Both the position numbers and the translations under genes were made by a program. Shown one piece after another: positions 3,930 to 53,705 of a stretch of 53,705 nt of DNA. The notes under the pieces were generated by a model that saw only the letters and a program-made list of their open reading frames with translations, did not search any database and had not been told where the DNA came from. Within the stretch, counting starts at the first letter, position 1, and each line of letters opens with the position of its first letter. Origin of the DNA: Defluviicoccus sp. (GTDB taxonomy: Bacteria; Pseudomonadota; Alphaproteobacteria; MPNO01); assembly GCA_022823775.1 (NCBI GenBank), contig JAJEHI010000124.1, forward strand, positions 1 to 53,705, read 5' to 3'.

Positions 3930-4483
3930 CGCGCGCCGAGGGCCGCCGCCGCCGACAGGTAATCCTCGATCATGCCCCGGAACATGCCGGCGAGCGCCTC
4001 GTTCGCGATGTTGCCGTCCTCGCCGTAGGCCTGGCCGGCCTGCGCGAGGGCGAACATCTTCGGGTAGCACCAGCAGCCCAGGATCTCGAGCGGCAGCCGG
4101 AGGCTGGTCAGCCCGCGCGCGCCGCCGACGAGAGACGGCGAAGCCGACATCAGCAGGACCGACTTGCGGTCGAGCGGCACGGGCTGCATGCGCGACAGCC
4201 AGTCGATGGCGTTCTTCAGCGTGCCCGGCATGGTCCAGTTGTATTCCGGCGAGGCGAGCAGCCAGGCATCCGACTCCGCGATGCGGGCCCCCAGCGCCTC
4301 CGCGCCCTCGGGAATGCCGGACTCGTCCTGCAGATCGCCGTTGTAGAGCGGCATGTCGAACTCGCCGAATTCGGCGTGGTCGACCTCGTGACCGCATTCG
4401 CGGACAATGTCTTCGGCGAGCAGCAGGAGACGCCGGTTGATCGATTCCTTCCTGAGCGAAGCGGCGAACGCAAATACCTTCAT
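3926..4483 (-). CDS. NAD(P)H-dependent FMN reductase-like flavoprotein
   Basis: A 185-residue flavodoxin-fold protein of the NADPH-dependent FMN reductase family (SsuE/ChrR/ArsH type). The phosphate-binding loop is at the start (FAFAASLRKESINRRL, residues 4-19) and the typical SPEYNWTMPGTLKNAIDWLS segment lies near residue 80. I chose ATG at 4483, which gives the canonical MKVFAFAASLR start with a GGA about 13 bases upstream; an upstream in-frame ATG would add an arginine-rich leader without homology character. It is the promoter-proximal gene of the CoxLMS unit and overlaps CoxL by 4 bases, so it may serve as redox partner or quinone/flavin reductase for that hydroxylase. That role is inferred. 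Confidence 0.86.
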   Translation of the reverse strand: MKVFAFAASLRKESINRRLLLLAEDIVRECGHEVDHAEFGEFDMPLYNGDLQDESGIPEGAEALGARIAESDAWLLASPEYNWTMPGTLKNAIDWLSRMQPVPLDRKSVLLMSASPSLVGGARGLTSLRLPLEILGCWCYPKMFALAQAGQAYGEDGNIANEALAGMFRGMIEDYLSAAAALGAR

Positions 4484-9320: not shown

Positions 9321-11510
9321 ATGGAACGAAGCTTCGCCAAGGAAGTCGAGCTTCTGCGCCGGGGCGACGGGGAATATTTCGAGGGCGAGGGCATCCTCGC
9401 CATCACCAAGGGCCTGCTGCAGTCGGGCGTGAGCTACGTCGGCGGCTACCAGGGCGCGCCGGTCTCCCATCTGATGGATGTGCTGACGTCGGATTCCAAG
9501 GGGTTGATGGCGGAGCTCGGCGTCCATACCGAAGTCTGCGCCAACGAGGCCGCGGCGGCGGCCATGCTGGCGGCCTCGATCAACTATCCGATCCGCGGCG
9601 CGGTGACATGGAAATCGACGGTCGGCACCAACGTCGCGGCCGACGCGCTCTCCAACGTCGCGTCCGCCGGCGTCGTCGGCGGCGCGCTGATCATTCTGGG
9701 CGAGGATTACGGCGAAGGCGCGAGCATCATCCAGGAACGCACCCACGCGTTCGCGATGAAATGCTCGGCGTGGCTGATGGACCCCCGCCCTCATCATCCC
9801 CGCATGGTCGATCTCATCGAGAAGGGGTTCGAGCTCTCCGAGGCCTCGCACACGCCGGTGATGGTGGAATTCCGCATCCGCGCCTGCCACGTCACCGGCC
9901 GTTTCGCGACCAAGGACAACAAGCCGGGCCGGTTCTCGACCAACGACAAGCTGGAGAAGCCGGTCTTCGACATCGGGCGCATCGCGCTGCCGCCGGCGAC
10001 CTACGAGCAGGAAAAGAAGAAGGTCGAGGAGCGATTCCCCGCGGCCATCGACTTCATCCGCGAGCACAAGCTGAACGAGGTCTTCCCGGGCAAGTACGAC
10101 GATGTCGGGATCGTCTGTCTGGGCGGACTCTACAACTCGGTGATCCGCGGGCTGCAGCAGCTCGGCCTCGCCGACGTGTTCGGCAATTCCGACATCCCCA
10201 TCCTCTGCCTCAACGTCACCTACCCCCTGGTCGACGACGAGATCGCGGAATTCTGCGCGACCAAGCGTTCGGTCCTCATCGTGGAAGAGGGCTTCCCGGA
10301 ATACCACGAGCAGGCGATCAACGCGCTGCTGCGCAAGGCCGACCTCAACACCGAGATCGTCGGCAAGGGCGTGTTTCCCAAGGCCGGCGAATACCAGGCC
10401 GAGGTGATGCTGCGCGGGCTCGCCGGCTTCATCGAAGGCTCGGTCCCCAAGGGGATCGACCTGGAGCCGGTATCCGCGGTCGTCGCCGGCCTCGACAAGA
10501 CCAAGGAAACCGCGGCCGAAATGCTGGGCAAGCCGGTTCCCAAGCGTCCGCCGGGTTTCTGCACGGGCTGCCCCGAACGGCCGGTGTTCAGCGCGATCAA
10601 GCTGGTGCAGCGCGAGGAGGACGTCGGCGAGGTGCACATCTCGGCCGATATCGGCTGCCACACCTTCGCCGCGCTGCCGCCCTTCGGACTCGGCAACACG
10701 GTGACCGGCTACGGGCTCGGACTCGCGAGCTCGGCGGGGGTCGCGCCGCACTTCAACGGGCGCACGATCTCGATCATGGGCGACGGAGGATTCTGGCATA
10801 ACGGGTTGTCGAGCGGCATCAGCGGGGCCGCCTTCAACGACCACGATTCGGTTCTGGTCATCATGGCCAACGGCTATTCCTCGGCGACCGGCCAGCAGCG
10901 CCTGCCGTCCACCACCGCGGGCGGCAGCGTCCCGTCCGACACGGTCATGCCGATGGAGCGCGCGATCAAGGGACTCGGCGTCAAGTGGGTGCGCAAGCAG
11001 TACACCTACCGGGTCGGCAAGATGAAGAAACTGCTGCACGAGGCGCTGACCACGCCCGAGAAGGGGCTGAAGGTCATCATCGCCGAGGCCGAATGCCAGA
11101 TCGCCAAGCAGCGCCGGCTTCGTCCGCTGGTCCGCAAGGCGCTCGATGCCGGCAACCGGGTCGTCCGGACGCGGTTCGGCGTCGACGAGGACACCTGCAC
11201 CGGCGATCATTCCTGCATCCGGCTGTCGGGCTGCCCCTCGCTCACCGTCAAACCCAACCCGGACCCCCTCCGCAAGGACCCGATCGCGCATGTCAACAAC
11301 GGCTGCGTGGGGTGCGGGCTGTGCGGCGAGGTGGCCGACGCGGCCGTGCTCTGCCCCTCCTTCTACCGCGCGGACATCGTCCAGAACCCCAAGGGCATGG
11401 ACCTGTTCCTGGACAAGTGGCGCAAGAGCGTGATCGGCAGGCTCGGAGGGTATGCGAACGGCGCGGTTGCCAACGGCTCGGCGGCCGGGGGCAACGGAGC
11501 CGCCCGATGA
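9321..11510 (+). CDS. iorA: Indolepyruvate ferredoxin oxidoreductase, alpha subunit
   Basis: The 729-residue protein is the thiamine-diphosphate subunit of a 2-oxoacid:ferredoxin oxidoreductase of the indolepyruvate type. The N-terminal pyrimidine-binding domain includes GVSYVGGYQGAPVSHLMD. The C-terminal half has the TPP-binding motif GDGGFWHNG near residue 487, then SSATGQQ. The tail holds an iron-sulfur region: CTGDHSCIRLSGCPSL near residue 625 and CVGCGLCGE...CPSF near residue 661, for 4Fe-4S clusters. It oxidatively decarboxylates aryl or branched 2-oxo acids to acyl-CoA and passes electrons to a low-potential acceptor. It follows the ADP-forming synthetase by 134 bases and overlaps iorB by 4. 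Confidence 0.92.
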   Translation: MERSFAKEVELLRRGDGEYFEGEGILAITKGLLQSGVSYVGGYQGAPVSHLMDVLTSDSKGLMAELGVHTEVCANEAAAAAMLAASINYPIRGAVTWKSTVGTNVAADALSNVASAGVVGGALIILGEDYGEGASIIQERTHAFAMKCSAWLMDPRPHHPRMVDLIEKGFELSEASHTPVMVEFRIRACHVTGRFATKDNKPGRFSTNDKLEKPVFDIGRIALPPATYEQEKKKVEERFPAAIDFIREHKLNEVFPGKYDDVGIVCLGGLYNSVIRGLQQLGLADVFGNSDIPILCLNVTYPLVDDEIAEFCATKRSVLIVEEGFPEYHEQAINALLRKADLNTEIVGKGVFPKAGEYQAEVMLRGLAGFIEGSVPKGIDLEPVSAVVAGLDKTKETAAEMLGKPVPKRPPGFCTGCPERPVFSAIKLVQREEDVGEVHISADIGCHTFAALPPFGLGNTVTGYGLGLASSAGVAPHFNGRTISIMGDGGFWHNGLSSGISGAAFNDHDSVLVIMANGYSSATGQQRLPSTTAGGSVPSDTVMPMERAIKGLGVKWVRKQYTYRVGKMKKLLHEALTTPEKGLKVIIAEAECQIAKQRRLRPLVRKALDAGNRVVRTRFGVDEDTCTGDHSCIRLSGCPSLTVKPNPDPLRKDPIAHVNNGCVGCGLCGEVADAAVLCPSFYRADIVQNPKGMDLFLDKWRKSVIGRLGGYANGAVANGSAAGGNGAAR

Positions 11511-40554: not shown

Positions 40555-41143
40555 TCCTCCAACGGGCGTAGGACTCGGCGTCGTCGACATCCTCCAGTAT
40601 GTCGAGAAATGCGACCCTCCGGCGGACGGGCACGTTCGCGCGTGTGTCCGCAAGGGCGTGCGGGCTCGACCAGCGCACACCGTCGAACAGGCCGCGCGTC
40701 GGGACGCCCGGACGCCGCCCGACCAGCCAGTAGCCTCCGTCGGCCGCCGGCCCGAAAGCCAGGTCGGCGCTTCGGAGCGCGGCGAAGGCGCTTTCGACAT
40801 GCCGCGCGCCGAGCTCGGGAATATCGCTCCCCACGATGGCGACGGGGACCATGCCGTCGCCCGCCAGAATCCGTCCCATCCTCGCGCCGAGGTCCCCCGG
40901 CCCTTGCCCCCGCCGCGGCAATCCGACGGGCCAGGGCGATCCGCCACGGGCCGACCGGTCCGGGGTGACGGCGAGAACCGTTTCCCAGCGCGGGTCGCGC
41001 CCGACCCGGCACAACAGCCGTTCGGTCGAGGCACGGTAGAAGCGTAGCGCCTCGAGCGCGCCTACCCCCGCCGCCAGGCGTCGCTTGACCGCGCCGAGCG
41101 CCGGGGCGCGAACGAACACATAGAGCCTGGGGCGCCGCCTCAT
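40523..41143 (-). CDS. DUF2064 / TIGR04282-type glycosyltransferase-like protein
   Basis: The 206-residue protein belongs to the DUF2064 family of nucleotide-diphospho-sugar-transferase-like folds. The start RPRLYVFVRAPALGAVKRRL and the central VAIVGSDIPELGARHVESAF and GPAADGGYWLVG are diagnostic. It is always paired with the TIGR04283 glycosyltransferase seen upstream, and the two overlap here as ATGA. Both families are annotated as arsenosugar-associated in some genomes, but no arsenic gene is present here. The gene extends 32 bases into the 3' end of moaB on the other strand. Confidence 0.86.
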   Translation of the reverse strand: MRRRPRLYVFVRAPALGAVKRRLAAGVGALEALRFYRASTERLLCRVGRDPRWETVLAVTPDRSARGGSPWPVGLPRRGQGPGDLGARMGRILAGDGMVPVAIVGSDIPELGARHVESAFAALRSADLAFGPAADGGYWLVGRRPGVPTRGLFDGVRWSSPHALADTRANVPVRRRVAFLDILEDVDDAESYARWRIRRNSPRGAR

Positions 41144-41862
41144 CGGTAAATGCGCGCGATGGCAGCGGGCGGAATACCCAGGAAATAGAGCCCGAGGCAA
41201 AACAGGTTGCGGCCCGAGCGGCGCAGATAGCCCGACTTCCGGTAGCGCGCCGCCGACGTGACGGCGGCGACATCCAGCGTGTCGAGCCGTCGCCGTCCGA
41301 TGCGCCGGACGAAATCGACGTCCTCCATGAGCGGAAGCGGCCGAAACCCGCCGAGCAGATCGTAGAACGCGCGTGAAATCAGCAGCCCCTGATCGCCGTA
41401 GGGGAGCCCCAGCACGGCGGTGCGCCAGGCGACCGCCGCCTCCAGCCTGCGCGCCGACCGCGCGGTGTCGTCCAGCGCGAAGCGGAATGTCGCCGCGCGC
41501 TCCCCGTTCGCGGGATCGCCGCAATAGCCGAACACCGCCTCCGCCCAGCCTTCCCCGGGCACCGTGTCGGCGTGGAGAAAGAGCAGCCAGCGACCGCGGG
41601 CCTGTCGGGCGCCCTCGGCGAGCTGGATCCCGCGGCCCGGAGGAGACGCGACGACCCTCGCACCGAGCCTTTCGGCGACCGCCGGCGTGTCGTCGGACGA
41701 CCCGCCGTCGACCGCCACGACCTCGAAGCTCCGTTCCGGTTCCGGCGCCGCGAGCGCCCGGAGCGTTTCCGGAAGCGCGGCGGCGGCGTTCAGCGCCGGG
41801 ATGACGATGCTGAGGACCGGTTGCACGCCGGGTTTCTGAAGTCTCCCCGCGGCAATGTCCAT
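41140..41862 (-). CDS. Family-2 glycosyltransferase (TIGR04283 type)
   Basis: The 240-residue GT-A-fold protein has VLSIVIPALNAAAALPETL, the DxD-like region GRWLLFLHADTVPGEGW, and an acceptor-side motif LMEDVDFVRRIGR. A hydrophobic stretch near the C-terminus (LFCLGLYFLGIPP) may contact the membrane. The TIGR04283 branch is linked by name to arsenosugar biosynthesis but is widespread. It is divergent from the radical SAM gene; the LexA box lies 12 bases upstream of its start codon as well, so either gene or both could be SOS-controlled. Confidence 0.87.
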   Translation of the reverse strand: MDIAAGRLQKPGVQPVLSIVIPALNAAAALPETLRALAAPEPERSFEVVAVDGGSSDDTPAVAERLGARVVASPPGRGIQLAEGARQARGRWLLFLHADTVPGEGWAEAVFGYCGDPANGERAATFRFALDDTARSARRLEAAVAWRTAVLGLPYGDQGLLISRAFYDLLGGFRPLPLMEDVDFVRRIGRRRLDTLDVAAVTSAARYRKSGYLRRSGRNLFCLGLYFLGIPPAAIARIYR

Positions 41863-41912: not shown

Positions 41913-42986
41913 ATGGACTCCCCTCTCCCGGATATCCCCCGCAAGGGCCGGGGCGCCGTCAGCAACCGCGCGGGGCGCTTCGAGCCCCATACGTCCGAGG
42001 CGATCGACGACGGCTGGTTCGCCGACGATCCGCCGCCGCTCAGGACGACGCTGACGCGCGATGCGTCGAAGACGATCATCGCGCGCAACGCCTCGCCGGA
42101 CGTACCCTTCGACCGTTCGATCAACCCGTATCGCGGCTGCGAGCACGGCTGCATCTATTGCTTCGCGCGCCCGACCCACGCGTTTCTCGGCCTCTCGCCG
42201 GGGCTCGATTTCGAAACCCGGCTGTTCTACAAGCCGGACGCGGCCCGGCTGCTGGAAGACGCGCTCCACGATCCGAAATACGAATGCCGGACGATGGCGA
42301 TGGGGACGAATACCGATCCCTACCAGCCCATCGAGCGCGAATTCCGCATCACGCGTTCCATCCTCGAAATGCTGTCCGAATGCGACCATCCGGTCGGAAT
42401 CGTCACCAAGTCGTCATTGGTGGCGCGCGACATCGACATTCTGGCGCCGATGGCGGCGCGGTCGCTGGCCCAGGTGTGCATTTCGGTGACGACTCTGGAC
42501 CGCGGGCTCGCGCGCCTTCTGGAACCGCGCGCGCCGACTCCGGCCCGACGGATCGAGACGATCCGGCGTCTCGCCGAGGCCGGCATTCCGACCGGGGTGA
42601 TGGCCGCGCCGACGATCCCCGGTCTCACCGATCACGAGATGGAGGACATTCTCGAAACCGCTTTCGAGGCGGGCGCGCGGTCGGCCAGCTACATCCTCCT
42701 CCGCCTGCCGCTGGAGATCGCGGACCTGTTCGAGGAATGGCTCAAGACCCATCGGCCGGATCGTGCCGCGCGGGTGCTCGGCCTGATGCGCCAGGCTCAC
42801 GGCGGCAGGATCTACGAATCGACGTTCGGCAAGCGCATGCGCGGCCGGGGGCCCTACGCCGGGATGCTGGCCAAACGGTTCGAAGCGGCCCGCAAGCGCC
42901 TGGGATTTTCGGACAGGCGGTTCGAACTGGATACGACGCGGTTCAAACGCCCGCTTAGGCGGGGAGACCAGCTCGCGCTGTTCTGA
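41913..42986 (+). CDS. PA0069-family radical SAM protein (spore photoproduct lyase-like)
   Basis: A 357-residue radical SAM enzyme with the cluster motif CEHGCIYC (Cys76, Cys80, Cys83) within INPYRGCEHGCIYCFARP. Family segments MAMGTNTDPYQPIEREFRIT, GIVTKSSLVARDIDIL and TFGKRMRGRGPYA fit the PA0069/Rv2578c group related to spore photoproduct lyase. The chemistry is 5'-deoxyadenosyl-radical based; its actual substrate is not established. The LexA box just upstream suggests that it is induced by DNA damage. Confidence 0.92.
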   Translation: MDSPLPDIPRKGRGAVSNRAGRFEPHTSEAIDDGWFADDPPPLRTTLTRDASKTIIARNASPDVPFDRSINPYRGCEHGCIYCFARPTHAFLGLSPGLDFETRLFYKPDAARLLEDALHDPKYECRTMAMGTNTDPYQPIEREFRITRSILEMLSECDHPVGIVTKSSLVARDIDILAPMAARSLAQVCISVTTLDRGLARLLEPRAPTPARRIETIRRLAEAGIPTGVMAAPTIPGLTDHEMEDILETAFEAGARSASYILLRLPLEIADLFEEWLKTHRPDRAARVLGLMRQAHGGRIYESTFGKRMRGRGPYAGMLAKRFEAARKRLGFSDRRFELDTTRFKRPLRRGDQLALF

Positions 42987-43282
42987 CGAAGGATCTCACC
43001 GCCCCGCGCACCGGACCCCGGAGGCAACCGGCGCCATCCTCTTCGTTCCGGTATCGGAGGACGCCGGCGTTCGTCCCGGCAACAGCGCCCTTGCGGCGGC
43101 GAAATCCGACGCCTGCTTGGCGGGAGCCGAACGGCAGGAGCCGCGCGGTACCGCCGCCGCCGGGTTCGCCTATACCGTTGGGGCCGCACGGTTCGTATCC
43201 GTCGGCCGGACCGGACTCGTCCCTTTGCATTCGCGGGTGGCGTCTTGCTATGCAGGTGCCGGATCGGCAGGCGAGTTCGGGC
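42987..43282. other. Intergenic region before the SDR gene
   Basis: These 296 bases, GC-rich throughout, contain no recognisable gene, terminator or repeat. Frames that cross the region on either strand give low-complexity Arg/Pro/Gly translations and no family resemblance. If an upstream ATG at 43250 were used the SDR protein would gain 11 residues. No promoter elements are obvious. Confidence 0.4.
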
Positions 43283-44047
43283 ATGAAGGTCGATAGGCAA
43301 ACGGCGATCGTTACCGGGGGGGCATCCGGATTGGGCGAGGCGACGGCGCGGGCGTTCGCGGCCGCCGGTGCGAGGGTCGGCATTCTGGACATCGACGAGG
43401 AGCCGGCGCGAAGGGTCGCGGCTGAGATCGGCGGTGCCGCCGCGGCGTGCGACGTGGTCGATCCCGCGAGTCACGAGGCCGCCGTCGCGGCGGTCCGCGA
43501 GCGGTTGGGGCCGGCACGTATCCTGGTCGCCTGCGCCGGCATCGCTCCGAGCGCCAGGCTGATACGGCGGGACGGCAAGGCAATCGCGCTGGAAACGGTC
43601 ACCCGCGCGATCCGCGTCAACCTGATCGGCACCATCAACTCCTGCCGACTGGCTGCCGCCGACATGGCCGCTCTGGAGCCGATGGACGACAACGAGCGCG
43701 GCTGTATCGTGACCACCGCCTCGGTCGCGGCCTTCGAGGGACGGATCGGGCAACTCGACTATGCCGCCTCGAAGGGCGGGGTTGCGGCGATGACGGCCCC
43801 GCTCGCGCGCGAACTCGCCGGCGAGGGAATCCGCGTGAACTGCATCGCGCCCGGCCTGATGGAGACGCCGATGATGAGCGGTCTGTCGGAGCCGGCCAAG
43901 CGGTTTCTGCTGGAAGCTACGGTTTATCCCAAGCGTCTGGGGAAGCCGGAAGAGTACGCCGCGCTTGCCCTTCACATCGTGGAGAACGCCTTTATGAACG
44001 GTTCGGTAATCCGGTTCGACGGCGCGCTCCGAACGGTGCCGGAGTAG
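43283..44047 (+). CDS. Short-chain dehydrogenase/reductase, 3-hydroxyacyl-CoA dehydrogenase type 2-like
   Basis: The 254-residue Rossmann-fold enzyme has the NAD(P) motif TAIVTGGASGLGEATARA (residues 7-24), Asp40-region LDIDE favouring NAD, NxxG-like VACAGIAPSA, and the catalytic YAASK. The late segment ELAGEGIRVNCIAPGLMETP resembles the HSD17B10/type-2 3-hydroxyacyl-CoA dehydrogenase subgroup. It would oxidise a 3-hydroxyacyl-CoA or similar alcohol. It sits 259 bases upstream of the synthase on the same strand and could supply or tailor a substrate for it, but the gap speaks against a single tight operon. Confidence 0.88.
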   Translation: MKVDRQTAIVTGGASGLGEATARAFAAAGARVGILDIDEEPARRVAAEIGGAAAACDVVDPASHEAAVAAVRERLGPARILVACAGIAPSARLIRRDGKAIALETVTRAIRVNLIGTINSCRLAAADMAALEPMDDNERGCIVTTASVAAFEGRIGQLDYAASKGGVAAMTAPLARELAGEGIRVNCIAPGLMETPMMSGLSEPAKRFLLEATVYPKRLGKPEEYAALALHIVENAFMNGSVIRFDGALRTVPE

Positions 44048-44306: not shown

Positions 44307-47300
44307 ATGAATTTGTCGGGCACGGACAACGGCGTTGCCATCGTCGGCTACAGCCACCGCATGCCGGGTGGCATTCGGTCGGATTCCGATTTCTGGACCC
44401 TGCTGACCGAACGCGAGATCGTCCAGGAGCCGATCGCGGACCGCTACGGAAAAGGTCACCGGCCCATCGGCGAATTCTCGGGGCCGGGACGGCTTGCGAG
44501 CCCTTACGAGGGGCTGATTCGCGACGAAGACGAGTTGCTCTTCGACCGTTCCTTCTTCGGTATGTCCCACAACGAATTGAGGCAGACCGAACCGCAGGTA
44601 AGGATGCTGCTCAATTGCGCGTGGGAAGCCATCGAACACGTCGGTTGGAACCTCCACTCGCTGCGCAACAGCCCCACCGGAGTTTTCATCGGGTCGCAGG
44701 TTCCGGCCGTGTCCAACTGGCGGCCGCAGCACGGCGTCACCGAGAATTCCGTGTCCGGCATCAGCCTCGCCATGCTGGCCAATCGGATCTCCTACCACTT
44801 CAACCTCATGGGGTCGTCGGTTACCTATTGCACGGCCTGTTCCGCCGGCCTGACCGCTCTGCACGCGGCGATGAACGCGCTCGCGTGCGGCGATTGCGAC
44901 CAGGCGCTCGTCGGCGCCGTCACATATCTGGGCAGCGCCAGGATGAGCAGCGGCTTCAACCTCATGGGGGTTATCAGCCCGGACGGCACCTGCCACTCGT
45001 TCGATGCGGAAGCCAACGGCTACATGCGCTCCGAGGGATCGTTCGTCTTCGCCGTCAAGCCTTTGCCAGCAGCCGAGCGGGACGGAGATCCCATCTACGC
45101 AGTGATCGAGTCGACGGCGGTGAACGCGGCGGGGACGGCGGACGGCACGGCCGGGCTCGCGCCGGGCCGGTACATCAGCGCACCGACGCGTCATTCCCAG
45201 GTCCTGCTGATGCGCGAGGCCGCAGCCCGTGCCGGTCGCACGCCATGCGAGTTCGACTACATCGAGGCGCACGCTACCGGAACCTCGGTCGGAGACCCCA
45301 TCGAGGGTAACGCCATCGCGGAGGCGTTCGGCGGTTTCGAGCGGGAGGCCCCGCTGCGGGTTTCCAGCGTCAAGAGCAATGTCGGGCACATGGAGGCCGC
45401 CGCCTTTCACTGCGCTCTGCTCAAGGTCGTCCTGATGATGCGGCGGCGCAACTTTGCGCCGACGTCGAAGAGCTTTCAGGTGCCGAATCTGGAGATCGAC
45501 TTCGACTCCTGCCCGATGCGGGTACAAACGGAATGCGAGCCGTTCCCCGAACATCCGGTCGTCATGGGCATCAACTCGTTCGGCTTCGGCGGAGCCAACG
45601 GGCACTGCGTGGTGCGCGAGTACCGACCGTCACGACCCAGGCTCTGGTCGGTGCCTCCGGCGCCCGACGCGGGCTTCATGATCCCGCTGTCGGCACGCAC
45701 GCCCGATGCGCTCGTGGAAAGCGCGCGACGCATGCGGGGGACGCTCGACGCGCATCGGCCGGACCTTTACGCGCTCGCCGCCAATCTAAGCCGCCGCCGC
45801 ACCCATTTCGCCGCGCGGGCGGCATTCGCGGCACGCAGTCTGCCCGATCTGGCCGATGCGCTGGATGGTTTCGCGGAAGAGGGCGCGCCTGTCGGCACCG
45901 CGGAGGAGGGCGAGCGACGGCTGGTCATGGTGTTCGCCGGGCAGGGGACGCAGTGGGCCGGCTGCGGGCGCGATCTCTACGAGGCTCACCCCGTCTTCCG
46001 CCGTGCCGTCGACGCCATTGAGGGGCATTGGCGGGAGCACGCGGACACTTCACTGCGCGAGGCTTGCTTCGAAACCGAGCAAGAAGAACTCGACGAGGTT
46101 CAACTCGCCCAGCCCGCCATCTTCATGATTCAGTGCGCGCTGGTGGAATTGTTCAAGACGTGGGGCGTTTATCCCGACTGCGTGGTGGGACACAGCTCCG
46201 GCGAGGTGGCCGCGGCCTACGCCTCGGGCGCACTCTCTCTCGCCGACGCGACGCGGCTGGTCTTCCATCGCGCCACCCTGCAGCAGCGCGCGTCGGGCTC
46301 CGGCCGCATGCTGGCCATCGGACTCGATCGGCCGGGCGTCGAAAAGTTGCTGGATACCTCGGACGTTCCTTTCCGACTCGATGGCGACCGGCCAGTCCAG
46401 GTCGAGATCGCCTGCGAAAACGCACCGGCCAACACCGTCATCTGCGGTCGCGAAGGCAGCCTGCGCCCTGTCATGGATGAACTGGACCGGCGAAATCTTC
46501 AGCACCGGCTAATCCCGGGGAACATCGCCTTTCATTCCCGGGCGATGGACCCGATCGAGGACGATGCGCTGGAGGCATTCGCCTTTCTCGACGACATCTC
46601 TTTCGACGCGGACGTTCCCTTCGTCTCGTCGGTGACGGGTGTCGGGACGAGACGGCTGGACAGTGCCTATTGGTGGTCGAACATTCGCCAGCCGGTCCGT
46701 TTCGCGGAGGCGATGGAAACCGTCAAGCGCGACCACCGGCCGAATGCGGTGCTGGAACTGGCACCGCATTCGGCGCTGCAACCCCTCGTCGCGCAATGCG
46801 TGGAAGACATGTCGCCTCCGCCCGTCTCCATTCCGACGCTCATGCGGGACCGGGATACGCGCATCGGCTTTCTCGAAGCCCTGGGCGCCCTCTTCAGGAC
46901 CGGCGTGCCCCTGGACTTCGCCGCCCAGTATCCGCGGCCCGAGCCCATTGTCGACCTGTTGCCCGGACATCCGAGGGAGGAGCAGAAGACCGTCGACGAC
47001 AAGCTGGACGACGAATTCTTCCTGCAACAAGGCGAATACGCGCACGGACCGTTGGTCGGGCACCGGATTCCCGGCGACCATCTCCTGTTCGAAGCGCGAC
47101 TGTCGGAAAGAGCTTTTCCGTGGCTGGCGGAGCACCGGGTTCATCATGCTTCGATCATGCCGGCCGCCGGCTATATCGAGCTGGTTCTGGAGGCTCTCGG
47201 CGGCGTTCCTGTCCATTTCGACGTGATTGAGTTCCTGCAGCCCTGCCCCATCCCGAAAACGCCTGTCAGGCTGCAGACGTCGCTGTATCCGGTCGCCAAT

Positions 47301-50300
47301 TCCGCCGGCGAATACACTTTCTCGATTTCGACGCTGCCTTACGAGGTCGACGCGAAGAGCGAACTGCACTGTCGCGGAAAAGTGCGCCTGATCGACGTTC
47401 GACCCGAGATGGATGCGCCGGAGACCCTCGCGGATATCGATGCCTCCGGCTACGAAGCTCTTCGCTACGCGGCTGACGACGAGATCTACGAACGCTTCGA
47501 GGTGATTCTCGGGGATACGTACCAGTACGGCCCCCAGTTCAGGAACATTCGGAGGCTCCGACGCGAGCCCGAGACGGGCCGCCTTCTGCTGGATGTCGGG
47601 GTGGACGAGGCACTTTGGACGGACGCCCGAAACGAAGGCTATGTTTCCTTCCCACCTCTCCTCGACGGCGGACTGCAATCGTTTCTCTACGACCTGATGC
47701 TCGGCGCCGATCGTTTCGCCATTCCTCTTCGGGCCGAGAACGTGACGTTCCTGGGCGCGCCGACGGTGCCGCGCCTCGTCTGCCAACTGACCTATCCGGG
47801 CGGCAAACGGTACGAAGTCGACGACAAGGGCCAATATGACGTTCCGAACGGCGAGTGGGTTTCCGGCAGGCTGAACTTCTACGACGACGCAACCGGCGCC
47901 CTCTCCCTTCATGTCGGGAAATACATATCCTTTATCTCCTACCCTCGACGGGTCGACCTGCCGCACAGCAAGCATCGCATCGTCTGGCAGCCCAAATACA
48001 TCTCCAACGGCGCCGCAATTGCCGATCGGTTGCCGGAGGGCGAGATCGAGCCATCCGGCTTGCTTGCCGCCCTTGAGCGCTCCGGTGACGGCGATGTGCG
48101 TGTCTGCCACGCCATGGAGTTCGCCGGTTCCAGAGAACCGGAGCAGACCGTACTTCAGCGCTGCGTCCAGTATCTCTCGCTTGAGGAGACGCAGACCGAG
48201 TTCTGGCTGGTCGGCAACGATGAGGAGGGCGCCCGGACATACTACGACGCCTTCCACGCCCACGATGCCGCGCTACGCTTCGATTGCATCGAACCCGACG
48301 GGCGGCAGGCGTCCACGCTCGATACGAGCCTGCCGCGCCGGCACGCAGCGGATATCCTGTTCCTCCACCAGGATGAGGCCGCGTTCACGTCCGAAGACTG
48401 GCGATTCTGGCGGGATGTGGCCATCGCGGGTGGGCTGGCGCTCGTTTCTCATGAAGACGGCGCGGTTGTGGAGCCCGACGGCGGGTGGACCACGCTGCGC
48501 GCGGGCGGTTGCGCGACGCTGTTCCAGGCGCCGCCCTTCCGCGCGGACGGGCTGGATCCGGGACCGCTGCCGGCTCCCCGATGGGTGCTGGGCGATCGCG
48601 CCAGTCTGGCGAGAGCCTGGACATCCCTGCTCGACGACGCTGCGGTACATCCGATCTCCTCGGAGGCCGTCGCCTCGGGCAACCCCTTCGAGCCCGAGGC
48701 GTGGCCGGAGGTCGCGGACGTGCAGGCGATCGATTTCTTCTTCGATTGGAATCCAGAGGATCCCACGGGCGAAAAGGCGGTCTTTCAGCTCGTCGCCTTC
48801 ATCCAGTCGCTGGTTCCCTACAGGATCGAAAACGCCGGTTGCCGGTGCCGCGTCACGGTGGTGACCCGAAAGGCGGCCATGGACGCCGAGGATGCGCGCG
48901 GAAGCGCGCTTTGGGGCGCGGTGCGCAGCATGGAGGTGGAGATCGCCGAAGAAGCCAGGCTCGATTTCCGTCTCGTGGACCTCGGCACCGCCGATGACCT
49001 GGAGACGCTGGCGTGGCTTGCCCGGCACGATCTCCGCGACCGCGAGCTCGCGGTGCGCACCGGCCAGTTGTGGGTGCCGCGCGTCGTAAGCGATCGGGAA
49101 CTCTTCCCGCGCGTGCCCGCCGACGAAGATCCGCCCTACCGGCTCTTCCTGGAGAACGCCGGACAGATTGCCGGTCTTCAGATGAAGACATACGATCCGC
49201 CTGCGCCGGGACCGCATCATGTGGAGATCGACGTCTCCGCCGCGGCGCTCAACTTCCGCGACGTCATGGTAACCCTGGGGCTGCTGCCGGCATTGGCCTA
49301 TGAGCGTTCCGCGCTCGGCCGCGAGGTCGGGATGGAGGCGAGCGGCGTGGTGCGCCGCGTCGGCATGGCGGTGGACGGGTTCGAGCCCGGCGATGAGGTG
49401 GTCTTCGTCGACGGCGGCTGTATCGCCAATCGTACGGTGGTGGGTCAGCACCGCGTCTTCCCCAAGCCCGCGGACCTGAGCATGGAGGAAGCGGCAGCGT
49501 CACTCTCGGTCTACGTCACCGCCTACTACGCCCTGATCCACCTGGCCCGGCTGCGCAAGGGGCAACGAGTCCTCATTCATTCCGCGATGGGCGGCATCGG
49601 ACAGGCCGCGATCGCCCTCGCCAACGACGTGGGCGCGGAGATCTACGCCACGGCGGGTAGCGAGAGCAAACGCACGCAACTTCTGGGACTAGGCGTCAGG
49701 GCAGCCTTCGATTCCCACAGCGAGGAGTGGTTCGACGGGCTGATGAAGGCGACCGGCGGCCAGGGCGTCGATGTCGTGCTGAACTCGCTGGCCGGCCGTC
49801 ACGTTCCGCTCTGCCTCGAGGCCCTGCGGGCTGGCGGCTGGCACTGCGAGATCGGCAAGGTCGACATCTATGCCGACAGCGCTCTCGGCCTCCGCGTTTT
49901 TCGCAAGAACCTGCGGTTCGCGGCCCTCGACCTCGACCGCCTGATGGTCGACGACCCTTACCTCTCGCGCGAGCTCTCCGAAGCCTGCCTCGACCTGCTC
50001 GATCGCGGCGTGGTGCCGCCATTGCCGGTCACCGTCTTTCCATACGGAGACTACGCGAAGGCGCTCCGCCTCATGACCTCCGGCCAGCATCAGGGAAAAC
50101 TGGTGCTCAAGGCGCCGCTCGAGTCCGCCCATTCCGACTTCCCGATCGACGATCGGAGGCCCCTGCTGAACCCGGACGGGACCTACCTCGTGACCGGCGG
50201 CCTGGGCGGCTTCGGCCAGCGGTTATTGCCCTACCTCGTGACCGCCGGAGCCCGCCACCTGACCTTGTTGGACCGCGATCCCGAACGCCGCCGCAGCGAG

Positions 50301-51356
50301 AACTGGCTGCGACAGTCCACGACCCTCGCGGACATAGGACAAGGGGTCGAGATCGACATCGTTCCGGGTGACGTAGCGGTCGAGGCGGACGTGCGCCGCT
50401 GCGTCGCCGACGTGAAGAGGCCGATTAAGGGGGTGTTCCATCTCGCCGGTATCTTGGACGACTGCCTGTTGGCGGACCTGTCGCCGGAGTCCGTCGCCCA
50501 GGTGTTCGCACCCAAGGCGCAGGGCGCGCTCAATCTCCATCGTGCCACGGCCGGCCTCGCGCTCGATCACTTCGTCATGGTGTCTTCCACGTCATCGACC
50601 TTCGGCAATCCCGGCCAGATCAATTACAGCGCGGCCAACGCGTATCTGGACGGCCTCGCCGCCTGCCGGCGCCAGCAGGGGCTGCCGGCCCTCTCCTACA
50701 ACCTGGCAGCGGTCGCGGACGCCGGCATGGCCGCGAGCAATCTCGGCATCCTGCGCCTGATGAAGGCCGCCGGCATGCCGCCCGTGAGCAGCTATTGCGC
50801 GATCGCCAACCTCGACTACGCCCTCCGCACGATGGGCGACGGCGACCACCTGATCACCGCGCTTTTCAAGCGCGTATTGTGGAGTGTCGATTCCGCCGAC
50901 TACATGCGAACGGGCCGCCTGATGAGCAATCAGGATGCGTTCGACATCGGCTCCGACGAGCTGCTGACACTCGATGGCGTCGTGGCGCAGATCGCCGCCA
51001 AGGTCGCCGAGCTCTGCGGCCACGACGAGGGCGGCACGGATGAGCCTCTCTCCAGTTTCGGACTCAACTCCATCTCCGTCGCCGAGCTGGGGGCGTTCAT
51101 ACAGAGCGAGTTCAACTTTCAGGCGAGCGCGCTGGAGCTGATGACCACGGCCTCTTGCCGGTCGCTGGCGGAGGCCATCGTGTTCGGCACGAAAACGGAC
51201 GAGGAGGCCGAGGCCGAGGAGGACGGCGACCCGATCGGCGATGCACCCCTGGCGGCGCTGCGCTGCGTTCGCCGCAAGCCGTCGCCATTCGCCAGCTCGC
51301 CCGAGGACCATTTCCCGCCGGCGCCCTGTTCCGGCGCGAGTGCCGAGACGGCCTAG
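44307..51356 (+). CDS. Single-module fully reducing type I polyketide/fatty-acid synthase (KS-AT-DH-core-ER-KR-ACP)
   Basis: The 2349-residue enzyme has these domains. Ketosynthase, about 8-430: catalytic Cys178 in YCTACSAGL, His322 in EAHATGT and His361 in KSNVGHMEAA. Acyltransferase, about 539-834: Ser630 in GHSSGE, and IAFHS at 743, closer to the malonyl-type HAFH. Dehydratase, about 911-1190: His943 and Asp1120 (LLDGGLQS). A 400-residue core without recognised motifs. Enoylreductase, about 1610-1938: LIHSAMGGIGQAA. Ketoreductase, about 1956-2180: GGLGGFG, Ser2094, Tyr2107, and LDD, which suggests B-type stereochemistry. Carrier protein: Ser2255 in GLNSIS. No thioesterase or methyltransferase motif was seen. 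A full reductive loop suggests iterative synthesis of a saturated chain. The next gene, a thioester reductase, could release it. Confidence 0.94.
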   Translation: MNLSGTDNGVAIVGYSHRMPGGIRSDSDFWTLLTEREIVQEPIADRYGKGHRPIGEFSGPGRLASPYEGLIRDEDELLFDRSFFGMSHNELRQTEPQVRMLLNCAWEAIEHVGWNLHSLRNSPTGVFIGSQVPAVSNWRPQHGVTENSVSGISLAMLANRISYHFNLMGSSVTYCTACSAGLTALHAAMNALACGDCDQALVGAVTYLGSARMSSGFNLMGVISPDGTCHSFDAEANGYMRSEGSFVFAVKPLPAAERDGDPIYAVIESTAVNAAGTADGTAGLAPGRYISAPTRHSQVLLMREAAARAGRTPCEFDYIEAHATGTSVGDPIEGNAIAEAFGGFEREAPLRVSSVKSNVGHMEAAAFHCALLKVVLMMRRRNFAPTSKSFQVPNLEIDFDSCPMRVQTECEPFPEHPVVMGINSFGFGGANGHCVVREYRPSRPRLWSVPPAPDAGFMIPLSARTPDALVESARRMRGTLDAHRPDLYALAANLSRRRTHFAARAAFAARSLPDLADALDGFAEEGAPVGTAEEGERRLVMVFAGQGTQWAGCGRDLYEAHPVFRRAVDAIEGHWREHADTSLREACFETEQEELDEVQLAQPAIFMIQCALVELFKTWGVYPDCVVGHSSGEVAAAYASGALSLADATRLVFHRATLQQRASGSGRMLAIGLDRPGVEKLLDTSDVPFRLDGDRPVQVEIACENAPANTVICGREGSLRPVMDELDRRNLQHRLIPGNIAFHSRAMDPIEDDALEAFAFLDDISFDADVPFVSSVTGVGTRRLDSAYWWSNIRQPVRFAEAMETVKRDHRPNAVLELAPHSALQPLVAQCVEDMSPPPVSIPTLMRDRDTRIGFLEALGALFRTGVPLDFAAQYPRPEPIVDLLPGHPREEQKTVDDKLDDEFFLQQGEYAHGPLVGHRIPGDHLLFEARLSERAFPWLAEHRVHHASIMPAAGYIELVLEALGGVPVHFDVIEFLQPCPIPKTPVRLQTSLYPVANSAGEYTFSISTLPYEVDAKSELHCRGKVRLIDVRPEMDAPETLADIDASGYEALRYAADDEIYERFEVILGDTYQYGPQFRNIRRLRREPETGRLLLDVGVDEALWTDARNEGYVSFPPLLDGGLQSFLYDLMLGADRFAIPLRAENVTFLGAPTVPRLVCQLTYPGGKRYEVDDKGQYDVPNGEWVSGRLNFYDDATGALSLHVGKYISFISYPRRVDLPHSKHRIVWQPKYISNGAAIADRLPEGEIEPSGLLAALERSGDGDVRVCHAMEFAGSREPEQTVLQRCVQYLSLEETQTEFWLVGNDEEGARTYYDAFHAHDAALRFDCIEPDGRQASTLDTSLPRRHAADILFLHQDEAAFTSEDWRFWRDVAIAGGLALVSHEDGAVVEPDGGWTTLRAGGCATLFQAPPFRADGLDPGPLPAPRWVLGDRASLARAWTSLLDDAAVHPISSEAVASGNPFEPEAWPEVADVQAIDFFFDWNPEDPTGEKAVFQLVAFIQSLVPYRIENAGCRCRVTVVTRKAAMDAEDARGSALWGAVRSMEVEIAEEARLDFRLVDLGTADDLETLAWLARHDLRDRELAVRTGQLWVPRVVSDRELFPRVPADEDPPYRLFLENAGQIAGLQMKTYDPPAPGPHHVEIDVSAAALNFRDVMVTLGLLPALAYERSALGREVGMEASGVVRRVGMAVDGFEPGDEVVFVDGGCIANRTVVGQHRVFPKPADLSMEEAAASLSVYVTAYYALIHLARLRKGQRVLIHSAMGGIGQAAIALANDVGAEIYATAGSESKRTQLLGLGVRAAFDSHSEEWFDGLMKATGGQGVDVVLNSLAGRHVPLCLEALRAGGWHCEIGKVDIYADSALGLRVFRKNLRFAALDLDRLMVDDPYLSRELSEACLDLLDRGVVPPLPVTVFPYGDYAKALRLMTSGQHQGKLVLKAPLESAHSDFPIDDRRPLLNPDGTYLVTGGLGGFGQRLLPYLVTAGARHLTLLDRDPERRRSENWLRQSTTLADIGQGVEIDIVPGDVAVEADVRRCVADVKRPIKGVFHLAGILDDCLLADLSPESVAQVFAPKAQGALNLHRATAGLALDHFVMVSSTSSTFGNPGQINYSAANAYLDGLAACRRQQGLPALSYNLAAVADAGMAASNLGILRLMKAAGMPPVSSYCAIANLDYALRTMGDGDHLITALFKRVLWSVDSADYMRTGRLMSNQDAFDIGSDELLTLDGVVAQIAAKVAELCGHDEGGTDEPLSSFGLNSISVAELGAFIQSEFNFQASALELMTTASCRSLAEAIVFGTKTDEEAEAEEDGDPIGDAPLAALRCVRRKPSPFASSPEDHFPPAPCSGASAETA

Positions 51357-51430
51357 CTCGTCCGGTAGTGCGGTTTCTCGGCAGGAGAGTCGGATCCGTG
51401 TCGGCGTTGCGAAAACCAAGATGAGACAGC

Positions 51431-53059
51431 ATGGCCAAACCAGGAGTCGCTGACCGAGCGGTACCCCCTCTTGTCGGCGAGTTACCGCCCCGATGCCGGG
51501 CGGACGTGGACGAGCTACGTCGCGTCGTACATACCACGATCGCGTGCGAGGCGCCGGCGGACGCTGTATCGCCAAACGAATTTCAAGAGGTTCTGCTGAC
51601 CGGAGCGACCGGTTTCGTGGGGCGCTTCCTGCTGCGCGCGCTTCTGCGCCAGAACGACCGGCTGATCGTGCACTGCCTGATCCGTGCCGAGAGCGCCGAG
51701 CACGGGTTCGCGCGATTGCGGGACGCGCTGGAGCAGGCGGAAATCCGTGAGGAGATTGCCGAAGAGCGACTGCGCGTGGTGCCCGGAGACTCCTCCCGCG
51801 AGCGCTTCGGTCTGAGCGAGTCTGAGTTCGGCGGGCTCTGTCAGCGGGTCGACGCGGTCTATCATGTTGCCGCCAATACGCGGCTCGTTCTGTCCTATGC
51901 GGATATACGCGAAACGAACGCGCTCGGCCTGCGCCCCGTGCTCGAGCTTTGCCTGAGGACCCGCCTCAAGCATCTGTTTCACTTCTCCACCATGGGCATT
52001 TTCCCGGAATATTTTTGCGACTTTTCGAGGGAGTACGGCCAGAGCCGCATCGACGATCAGATGCAGCCCGATCTCGCCGCCATGAAGAAGGCTTTTCCGT
52101 TCGGCGTCGTCGGGTATCCCTGGAGCAAGCTGGTGGCGGAGCAAGGCGTGCTGTTCGCTCGGGCAGCCGGCGTGCCGATCGCGATCTTTCGCCTTCCGCA
52201 AATGGGTCTTTCCAGCACGGGATATGCGCAGGCGAACGACTTTCCGACACCCCTGTTCGCCGCGGCGACACAGGTGGAAATGGCGCCGCATGGCTTTTCC
52301 CTGCAGAGAAACGCCGAACCGGTCGACACGGTCAGCGAAATCTGCGCGGCGATCTCGCTCAACCCCGACCGCCGCTTCACCGTCTATCATTGCTGCGATC
52401 CAGAGCCCCCATACGAAGATCTGGAGGTCGCCGAGCTGGGCTATTATTGGAAAAGCGTTCCCTACGCATCCTTCAGGCGCTCGTGTCAGGCCCTCCGCGA
52501 CGGTTCTCCGTTGCGCGGCCAGTGGGTGCTCGTCGACCATTTTGCGCCTTACTGGTTCAGCGAGGACAGGGCCCGCAGCACGGTGCCGATCGGCGATCGC
52601 GCCATCCGGGAAGACTGCCCCCACCCGATAAAGTGGCCCGCATTGCTGATCCGCCATGCGCGCTCCTATGACTGGATCAGGCGTCATCGGGACGGATGGC
52701 CCTACCCTGTTCCGCATGGGCGCCTGGACTTTGACGGTCTAATGGGACAGGCCGAAAGGTACGCCGAGCGCATGGGCGTCCCCTTCGAGCGAACCTACCC
52801 CGAGTGGATGCGCACCGGTCTCCAGCAACTCGTGCAGGCGCTGAAATCGCCGGAGGCCGGACTGCAGGAAACGCGGCTCAGCCACATCGTCTACGGGCTG
52901 ACGCGCGCCCTCCGCAGCAACGCGGCGCTCGCCCGCGAAAGGCAGCGGCACCCGGAGATCGAACGGGAGAAGGTCGAGCGGCCCGTCTTCATCGTCGGCA
53001 TCAACCGAACGGGCACGACTTTTCTGCATCGCCTGTTATCGCGCGACAGCCGCTTCTAG
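51431..53059 (+). CDS. Thioester reductase fused to a sulfotransferase N-terminus, ending at an in-frame TAG
   Basis: The frame encodes 542 residues up to TAG (53057-53059). Residues about 50-400 are a thioester-reductase-type extended SDR: NADPH motif LLTGATGFVG (55-64), VYHVAANTRL, HFSTMGIF and the YxxxK pair in GYPWSKLVAE (Tyr229, Lys233). It would reduce a carrier-bound acyl thioester to aldehyde or alcohol. After a linker, a PAPS sulfotransferase begins: VFIVGINRTGTTFLHRLL (519-536) is the 5'-phosphosulfate loop. The stop comes six residues later, in the middle of the fold, while the same frame remains open beyond it. It starts 74 bases after the synthase and is probably co-transcribed. 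Confidence 0.88.
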   Translation: MAKPGVADRAVPPLVGELPPRCRADVDELRRVVHTTIACEAPADAVSPNEFQEVLLTGATGFVGRFLLRALLRQNDRLIVHCLIRAESAEHGFARLRDALEQAEIREEIAEERLRVVPGDSSRERFGLSESEFGGLCQRVDAVYHVAANTRLVLSYADIRETNALGLRPVLELCLRTRLKHLFHFSTMGIFPEYFCDFSREYGQSRIDDQMQPDLAAMKKAFPFGVVGYPWSKLVAEQGVLFARAAGVPIAIFRLPQMGLSSTGYAQANDFPTPLFAAATQVEMAPHGFSLQRNAEPVDTVSEICAAISLNPDRRFTVYHCCDPEPPYEDLEVAELGYYWKSVPYASFRRSCQALRDGSPLRGQWVLVDHFAPYWFSEDRARSTVPIGDRAIREDCPHPIKWPALLIRHARSYDWIRRHRDGWPYPVPHGRLDFDGLMGQAERYAERMGVPFERTYPEWMRTGLQQLVQALKSPEAGLQETRLSHIVYGLTRALRSNAALARERQRHPEIEREKVERPVFIVGINRTGTTFLHRLLSRDSRF

Positions 53060-53705
53060 GCATTGAGGCGCTACGAGTTGACCGATCCGGTGCTGCCCGA
53101 CGGCGAGTATGCCACTGTGGCAGGCACGGTCGAAGATCCGCGCCGCGCCTATGCGGAGGAACTGTTAGGCGCGACCAATGTCGTCGATACGCTCGCCGGG
53201 CTCCACCGTACCGATATCGACGAGCCCGAGGAGGACTTGTGGATCCTCTGGCTCACGTTCTCGACTTGGATATTTGCGTCCGCGTATCACGTACCGACCT
53301 ATGGCCGTTGGCTGGCCGAGACCGAGTCACGCAACGCTTACGCCCATCACCGACGCGTCATGCGGCACTTCACCTGGCAGCGGCGCAGGCGCGAGCCGCG
53401 AAGCCGGCGGCACTGGCTGTTGAAGATGCCCTTCCACCTCATGGAATTGGAGGTGCTGTTGGAGACCTACCCGGATGCCCTCTTCATCCAGACCCATCGC
53501 GATCCCGTCGAGTTCATGGGCTCTTGGAACAGCATAGTGGAGCGGATACGAGGCTTTTCCACCGAGGCGCGGCCGCCGTTCGAAACCGGCGCCGAGCAGC
53601 TGGCGTTCATGAGCGGCATGCTCAACGGCGCCATGCGGTTCCGCGCCTCCAATCCCGCGCTTGAAGAGCGCTGGGTCGACGTTCGCTATACCGATTTGGT
53701 CGACG
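53060..53705 (+). pseudogene. Continuation of the sulfotransferase domain after the TAG, cut by the window edge
   Basis: In the same frame as the thioester reductase gene, 215 codons stay open from the TAG to the right edge. The translation continues the sulfotransferase fold: ALRRYELTDPVLPDGEYA, then RHWLLKMPFHLMELEVLLE, and the 3'-phosphate-binding motif QTHRDPVEFMGSWNSI. So the TAG falls between the two cofactor-binding motifs. It probably replaces one codon, for example TGG (Trp) by a single base change. Possibilities are a nonsense mutation, a sequence error, readthrough, or two separately translated pieces (a TTG follows at 53063). The label pseudogene is provisional. Confidence 0.7.

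Follow-up and report, generated by a model that had tools for sequence, protein, structure and literature searches.

The swf gene cluster was reported in 2013 from symbionts of Plakortis simplex (Della Sala 2013, PMC3908369), where it was found on two fosmids, PS11G3 and PSA11D7. It represents one of two mono-modular polyketide synthase (PKS) families that the same paper describes as occurring widely in the microbiomes of sponges (PMC3908369). The published SwfA proteins are 2349 and 2361 aa long with the domain order KS-AT-DH-ER-KR-ACP, and are marked by I or V in place of the second Q of DPQQR, HATGT in place of HGTGT, the motifs IAFH and GHSSGE, and QCALVEL, which is peculiar to SwfA (PMC3908369). 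SwfB, 832-839 aa long, combines a reductase with a sulfotransferase, and SwfC, a B12 radical-SAM protein of about 585 aa that was placed near radical-SAM methyltransferases, is absent from PSA11D7 (PMC3908369). The 2013 authors suggested that the cluster converts a terminal carboxylate to a primary sulfate; the ACP was activated by Svp, not by the enzyme of E. coli itself, and expression of the cluster in E. coli yielded no specific product (PMC3908369). The sup PKS (sponge symbiont ubiquitous) is likewise mono-modular and found in sponge symbionts, but constitutes a separate family (PMC3908369).

Clusters resembling swf are also reported across phyla in sponges, in MAGs (PMC9426513, mSystems 2022), in 'Ca. 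Thalassonella' (PMC10227082) and in PMC9864124. The literature that we found reports no swf product and contains nothing that links sponge alkyl sulfates to swf. PMC9864124 states that SupA and SwfA make methyl-branched fatty acids; the 2013 SwfA source that it cites calls the role of swf unknown.

Organization of the swf locus

The window analysed here is a stretch of 53,705 nucleotides that constitutes the whole of contig C183 in a 4.8-Mb draft genome, and it ends inside swfB at position 53705 (Table 1). The initial annotation pointed to no described pathway with a reducing PKS beside a thioester reductase-sulfotransferase protein, a view now superseded by the swfA-swfB(-swfC) cluster, which was described in 2013 (PMC3908369) and is widespread in sponge symbionts. 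Protein length, domain order, motifs and the neighbouring reductase-sulfotransferase gene leave hardly any doubt that the locus belongs to the swf family. Shared with the published clusters are the length and domain order of SwfA, its five motifs and a SwfC of the B12 radical-SAM type; the swfB frame matches the published fusion in size, although it is interrupted here. The locus differs in that swfC is convergent with swfB, a short-chain dehydrogenase (SDR) gene and a SulP gene lie in the block, an amber codon interrupts swfB, and the host is alphaproteobacterial. A further point of likeness is that PS11G3 carries genes for a SupE-like permease and a STAS-type anti-anti-sigma factor upstream.

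The host is an uncultured alphaproteobacterium and very probably a sponge symbiont. Bins of its nearest sibling (jk18x) come from Ircinia sponges (PMC9531527), and the RHO and COS bin names, judged as names, would fit the demosponge MAG study PMC8163846.

Table 1. Coordinates of features of the swf locus in the window and, where stated, on contig C46 of the same genome.
Feature	Coordinates	Strand	Description
Left end of inserted block	43006..43223		Homology to empty site of four siblings stops at 42986-43005
SDR	43283..44047	+	254 aa; type II 3-hydroxyacyl-CoA dehydrogenase-like (HSD10-like); PDB matches 4o5o, 4xgn, 1u7t
swfA ORF	44307-51356	+	2349 aa; one KS-AT-DH-ER-KR-ACP module (Pfam)
KS domain, SwfA	44331..45632	+	PF00109/PF02801; motifs EPQVR, CTACSA, HATGT, NVGH
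AT domain, SwfA	45927..46907	+	PF00698; GQGTQW, QCALVEL, GHSSGE, IAFH
DH domain, SwfA	47049..47759	+	PF21089/PF14765; HRVHHASIMP, DGGLQS
ER domain, SwfA	49209..50108	+	PF08240/PF00107/PF13602; GGxGQ
KR domain, SwfA	50178..50717	+	PF08659; KR Tyr present
ACP domain, SwfA	50988..51179	+	PF00550; GLNSI
swfB, cut by contig end	51431..53705	+	Rest on contig C46; frame broken by TAG
Thioester reductase domain, SwfB	51590..52408	+	PF07993 1.5e-49; TIGR01746 2.1e-57; motifs TGATGF, YPWSK
Sulfotransferase N-terminal part, SwfB	52982..53050	+	PF13469 (Sulfotransfer_3); PAPS loop RTGTT
In-frame TAG, swfB codon 543	53057..53059	+	Ends ORF 51431-53059
Sulfotransferase remainder within window	53060..53705	+	PF13469 5.2e-22; 3'-phosphate loop HRDPVEFMGS; PDB match 2zq5
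141-base exact overlap	53565..53705		Identical to reversed end of contig C46 (L059)
swfC	C46 6373-8115	Opposite to swfB (convergent)	580 aa; 98% identical to sibling's
SulP-family sulfate permease	C46 4637-6223		528 aa, STAS domain; directly after swfC

The reducing PKS SwfA

The initial annotation read the large open reading frame as one complete module, and Pfam analysis bears this out. A search of the same ORF (44307-51356) with Pfam found no thioesterase. Catalytic and cofactor motifs are kept throughout: the Cys, His and His of the KS, GHSSGE of the AT, the H...P motif and D of the DH, GGxGQ of the ER, the Y of the KR and GLNSI of the ACP. All five published SwfA signatures are present (EPQVR at residue 95, HATGT at 322, QCALVEL at 609, GHSSGE at 628 and IAFH at 740), and they are common to nearly all full-length relatives. 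Following the published reading of IAFH (PMC3908369), the AT motifs are predicted to select malonyl-CoA as extender.

The closest solved structure to SwfA in a PDB search is mycocerosic acid synthase. Mycocerosic acid synthase is an iterative enzyme, and this likeness, together with the presence of a single module, is suggestive of iterative use of SwfA. Mycocerosic acid synthase and Pks2 (mycobacterial iterative PKSs, Pks2 leading to sulfolipid-1) share the domain order of SwfA and provide its best NCBIfam match. They differ in that the AT motifs of SwfA read malonyl, not methylmalonyl, and a separate reductase protein is predicted for release. SwfA is not a member of the Pks2 family (sulfolipid-1 synthase, NF041183), against which it scores 888 bits with a cut-off of 2400, nor of the mycolic-type PKSs, for which its scores also fall under the cut-offs.

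A nonsense codon in swfB

The claim that a thioester reductase and a PAPS sulfotransferase are joined in one protein holds in part. Both domains lie in one frame, but that frame is interrupted by TAG, which the initial annotation overlooked, and the contig ends within the gene, so that SwfB is not one intact protein here. The reductase domain resembles those of MxaA (4u7w) and of Mtb NRP (4dqv), and the sulfotransferase resembles 2zq5/2z6v, in PDB searches. An AlphaFold model of SwfB (a sibling sequence with 27 relatives) had a mean pLDDT of 55 and a pTM of 0.36 and was too poor to add anything.

Past the TAG the same frame stays open to the end of the window, still matching Sulfotransfer_3. 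When the window is joined to contig C46 the gene has 831 codons with codon 543 as its single internal stop, and SwfB relatives are about 831 aa long. Codon 543 is TGG in the nearest relatives (L020-L023, L026 and L027), and Trp-543 is invariant in 27/27 aligned SwfB relatives; the RTGTT loop and the HR-P motif of the sulfotransferase are likewise kept through the 27 sequences. For the sulfotransferase region after the stop, dN/dS against relatives is 0.15-0.32, compared with 0.13-0.24 for the same domain among the intact copies themselves. These low values argue against a long-standing decay of the sulfotransferase and mean that the TAG would be either very recent or an assembly error. The nonsense codon may thus represent a recent mutation with loss of sulfation, or an error of assembly; if it is real, the strain would make a reductase without a sulfotransferase.

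Nucleotide identity to sibling locus L020 is about 97% over swfB (51400-53200), 76-84% at the end of swfA, and 81% at 53500-53800, where identity to L022 is 94%. Such shifts over 50200-53800 suggest that swf copies have recombined, or else that the assembly is chimeric. Genes that appear split between two frames are also seen in relatives, swfA in L031, L043 and L052, and swfB in L041. No plasmid record covered 80% of swfB in a search of such records, all identities being below 60%.

Completion of the cluster on contig C46

Looking beyond 53705, as had been proposed, became possible through the overlap with the reversed end of C46, which supplies the last ~73 codons of swfB and, beyond them, swfC in the opposite orientation, followed by SulP. 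Independent support for this join comes from four sibling genomes, in which the sequence left of the cluster (to 42986-43005) runs straight into C46 sequence (joined position ~58204, C46 ~3861) with essentially nothing between. SwfA and SwfC are both intact in this genome. The sibling's copy of SwfC has B12-binding and radical-SAM domains, and SwfC shows weak similarity to the hopanoid-lipid radical SAMs HpnJ and HpnR. The genome carries two APS-kinase genes and two ACPS-type phosphopantetheinyl transferase genes.

Just past SulP there are decayed swfA fragments, with AT and DH pieces in this genome (C46/L059 4144-4537) and a decayed KS piece in sibling G003 (contig C147, near 9505-9616); they look like the remains of another swfA copy. 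Elsewhere in the genome are ORFs of 3395 and 3445 aa with two ketosynthase matches each (C182:1569-10091 and C77:16613-25081), possibly separate polyketide or fatty-acid clusters, and one of the ACPS-type genes (C77:13134-13421) lies near the one on C77.

Relatives and candidate partner genes

A scan of species genomes yielded 34 loci with SwfB relatives, and comparison of their neighbourhoods, the check originally envisaged, found the swfA-swfB linkage kept. The possibility that the PKS and the reductase-sulfotransferase belong to separate pathways had been raised as a refutation, and the loci speak against it: wherever the flank is present swfA adjoins swfB, in either order and with at most swfC between. 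The reductase-sulfotransferase fusion is one protein in nearly every relative. SwfC is encoded in 22 of the 34 loci, its order and orientation varying.

These loci are labelled Alphaproteobacteria (including Rhodospirillales and Rhodobacteraceae), Gammaproteobacteria, Gemmatimonadota, Acidobacteria, Nitrospirales and Candidatus Binatia. The swf-like clusters of sponge MAGs and 'Ca. Thalassonella' belong to the same gene family, scattered across phyla; those reports name Nitrospirota, Latescibacterota, Acidobacteriota and Tectomicrobia (PMC9426513, PMC10227082), to which the loci here add Alphaproteobacteria, Gammaproteobacteria, Gemmatimonadota and Binatia. In the Gemmatimonadota-labelled and some other loci, genes for a STAS protein and a 92-aa protein lie ahead of swfA, as in fosmid PS11G3. 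A Binatia record (L046 9345-21406) has the order STAS, small gene, swfB, swfA, swfC, illustrating that swf gene order is not fixed.

The plan of two genes first proposed is too small, since swfC accompanies swfA and swfB, and SDR and SulP are added in this lineage. The SDR lies beside swf in this genome and in six others, on the same strand where it is upstream and on the opposite strand where it is downstream, its copies being 77-93% identical in five loci (L022, L024, L025, L026 and L032) and ~70-78% in L031; a SulP gene is seen again in L020, L026 and L032. We regard the two as candidate lineage-specific partners of swf, on the strength of this gene context. They could instead be chance neighbours belonging to other pathways, as both families are common and most swf loci lack them (SDR is present in 6/34, SulP in 3/34). 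We think this rather improbable in view of the seven genomes and the two arrangements of the SDR, and of the single block that SDR, swf and SulP form both here and in sibling G004, where the site is a different one.

Insertion of the swf block

A block of about 15.2 kb (43006 to joined position ~58203) is present in this genome but absent from the same site in siblings G002, G003, G004 and G005. G004 nevertheless carries SDR-swfA-swfB-swfC-SulP as one aligned stretch (joined 43224-57480) on a contig with other flanks, and in G003 the segment from the 3' end of swfA to SulP (joined 50316-57434) lies elsewhere, on a contig that starts inside swfA. For this second cassette (G004 C199) the left and right flanks are on different contigs in siblings, which gives no clean empty site there. 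The five genes thus appear to travel together as a cassette within the inserted block. Inspection by eye and short BLAST comparisons of the block ends revealed no evident integrase, target-site duplication, or inverted or terminal repeats.

Near the right end of the block there is a very AT-rich stretch of ~65 bases (L059 about 3890-3955) in a genome of 68% GC. A glycosyltransferase near the block (41140-41862, leftward strand) passes the curated threshold for TIGR04283, a model for arsenosugar biosynthesis. A short dispersed repeat, represented by L083 (reverse strand, 4118-4225), occurs in dozens of copies on both strands in siblings G000 and G003 and is possibly a small mobile or REP-like element.

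A more speculative scenario, which we put forward tentatively, is that in sponge symbionts swf constitutes a self-sufficient, mobile unit for a sulfated lipid, equipped with its own sulfate importer. Its movement from site to site and from lineage to lineage would lead unrelated symbionts of a single sponge to make the same lipid.

A proposed pathway and its alternatives

In the pathway that we favour, a phosphopantetheinyl transferase would activate SwfA, which would work iteratively, drawing on malonyl-CoA so that a largely saturated acyl chain grows on the ACP. With no thioesterase present, release is assigned to the reductase half of SwfB, which would use NAD(P)H to set the chain free in the form of an aldehyde or alcohol, and the sulfotransferase half would then transfer sulfate from PAPS to the new hydroxyl to give an alkyl-sulfate-type lipid. 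SwfC would probably methylate or otherwise modify an unreactive carbon; in this lineage sulfate may be brought in by the SulP permease, and the dehydrogenase-like SDR may alter the oxidation level of an oxygen on the chain. The saturated chain, reductive release and sulfation of the initial annotation remain plausible. We give about an even chance to a released and sulfated chain as the swf product, which is also the 2013 suggestion. A simple alkyl sulfate leaves SwfC and the SDR unexplained, and several swf loci lack SDR, SulP or swfC. The combined reading, comprising a swf cluster, an iterative chain, reductive release, sulfation, the roles of SwfC, SulP and SDR, and the cassette, is predicted from sequence comparisons and seems to us slightly better than evenly poised.

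In the main alternative the two halves of SwfB would act on different carbons, the reductase giving an aldehyde or being redox-silent, and the sulfotransferase acting on a hydroxyl retained in the chain or on another molecule altogether, for instance a glycolipid or hopanoid. Reductase domains can indeed go no further than the aldehyde or lack redox activity, and the curacin pathway uses a sulfotransferase to turn a beta-hydroxyl into a leaving group by sulfation (PMC3908369); the likeness of the SDR to 3-hydroxyacyl-CoA dehydrogenases hints at a chain oxygen, and the weak resemblance of SwfC to HpnJ and HpnR also fits. The curacin route, however, needs a thioesterase, which is missing here, the complete DH-ER set speaks for saturation of the chain, and the conservation of the fusion in nearly every relative favours successive steps on one substrate. 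We therefore consider action on different carbons possible but distinctly less probable.

Another view is that the pathway is decaying in this strain, with a reductase of 542 residues and no working sulfotransferase, such that a non-sulfated aldehyde or alcohol, or nothing useful, would result. The stop at an invariant Trp and the decayed swfA fragments beside the cassette are in keeping with this, but SwfA and SwfC are intact, the sulfotransferase frame runs on to its normal end under apparent purifying selection, and one differing base in an assembly from metagenome data could be a mistake or stem from a minor variant of the strain. On balance decay appears unlikely, and reductive release followed by sulfation is the reading that we retain.

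Implications

To the swf family this locus contributes a setting in an alphaproteobacterium, two genes that are candidate partners, an interrupted swfB, and an insertion site that is empty in four siblings, at least one of which carries the cassette elsewhere. Expression constructs built on swfABC alone would miss the candidate partners SDR and SulP, and the swf genes form an inserted block that close relatives lack at this site or carry elsewhere. If the sulfated-lipid idea is true, unrelated symbionts of one host may have a membrane or signalling lipid in common.
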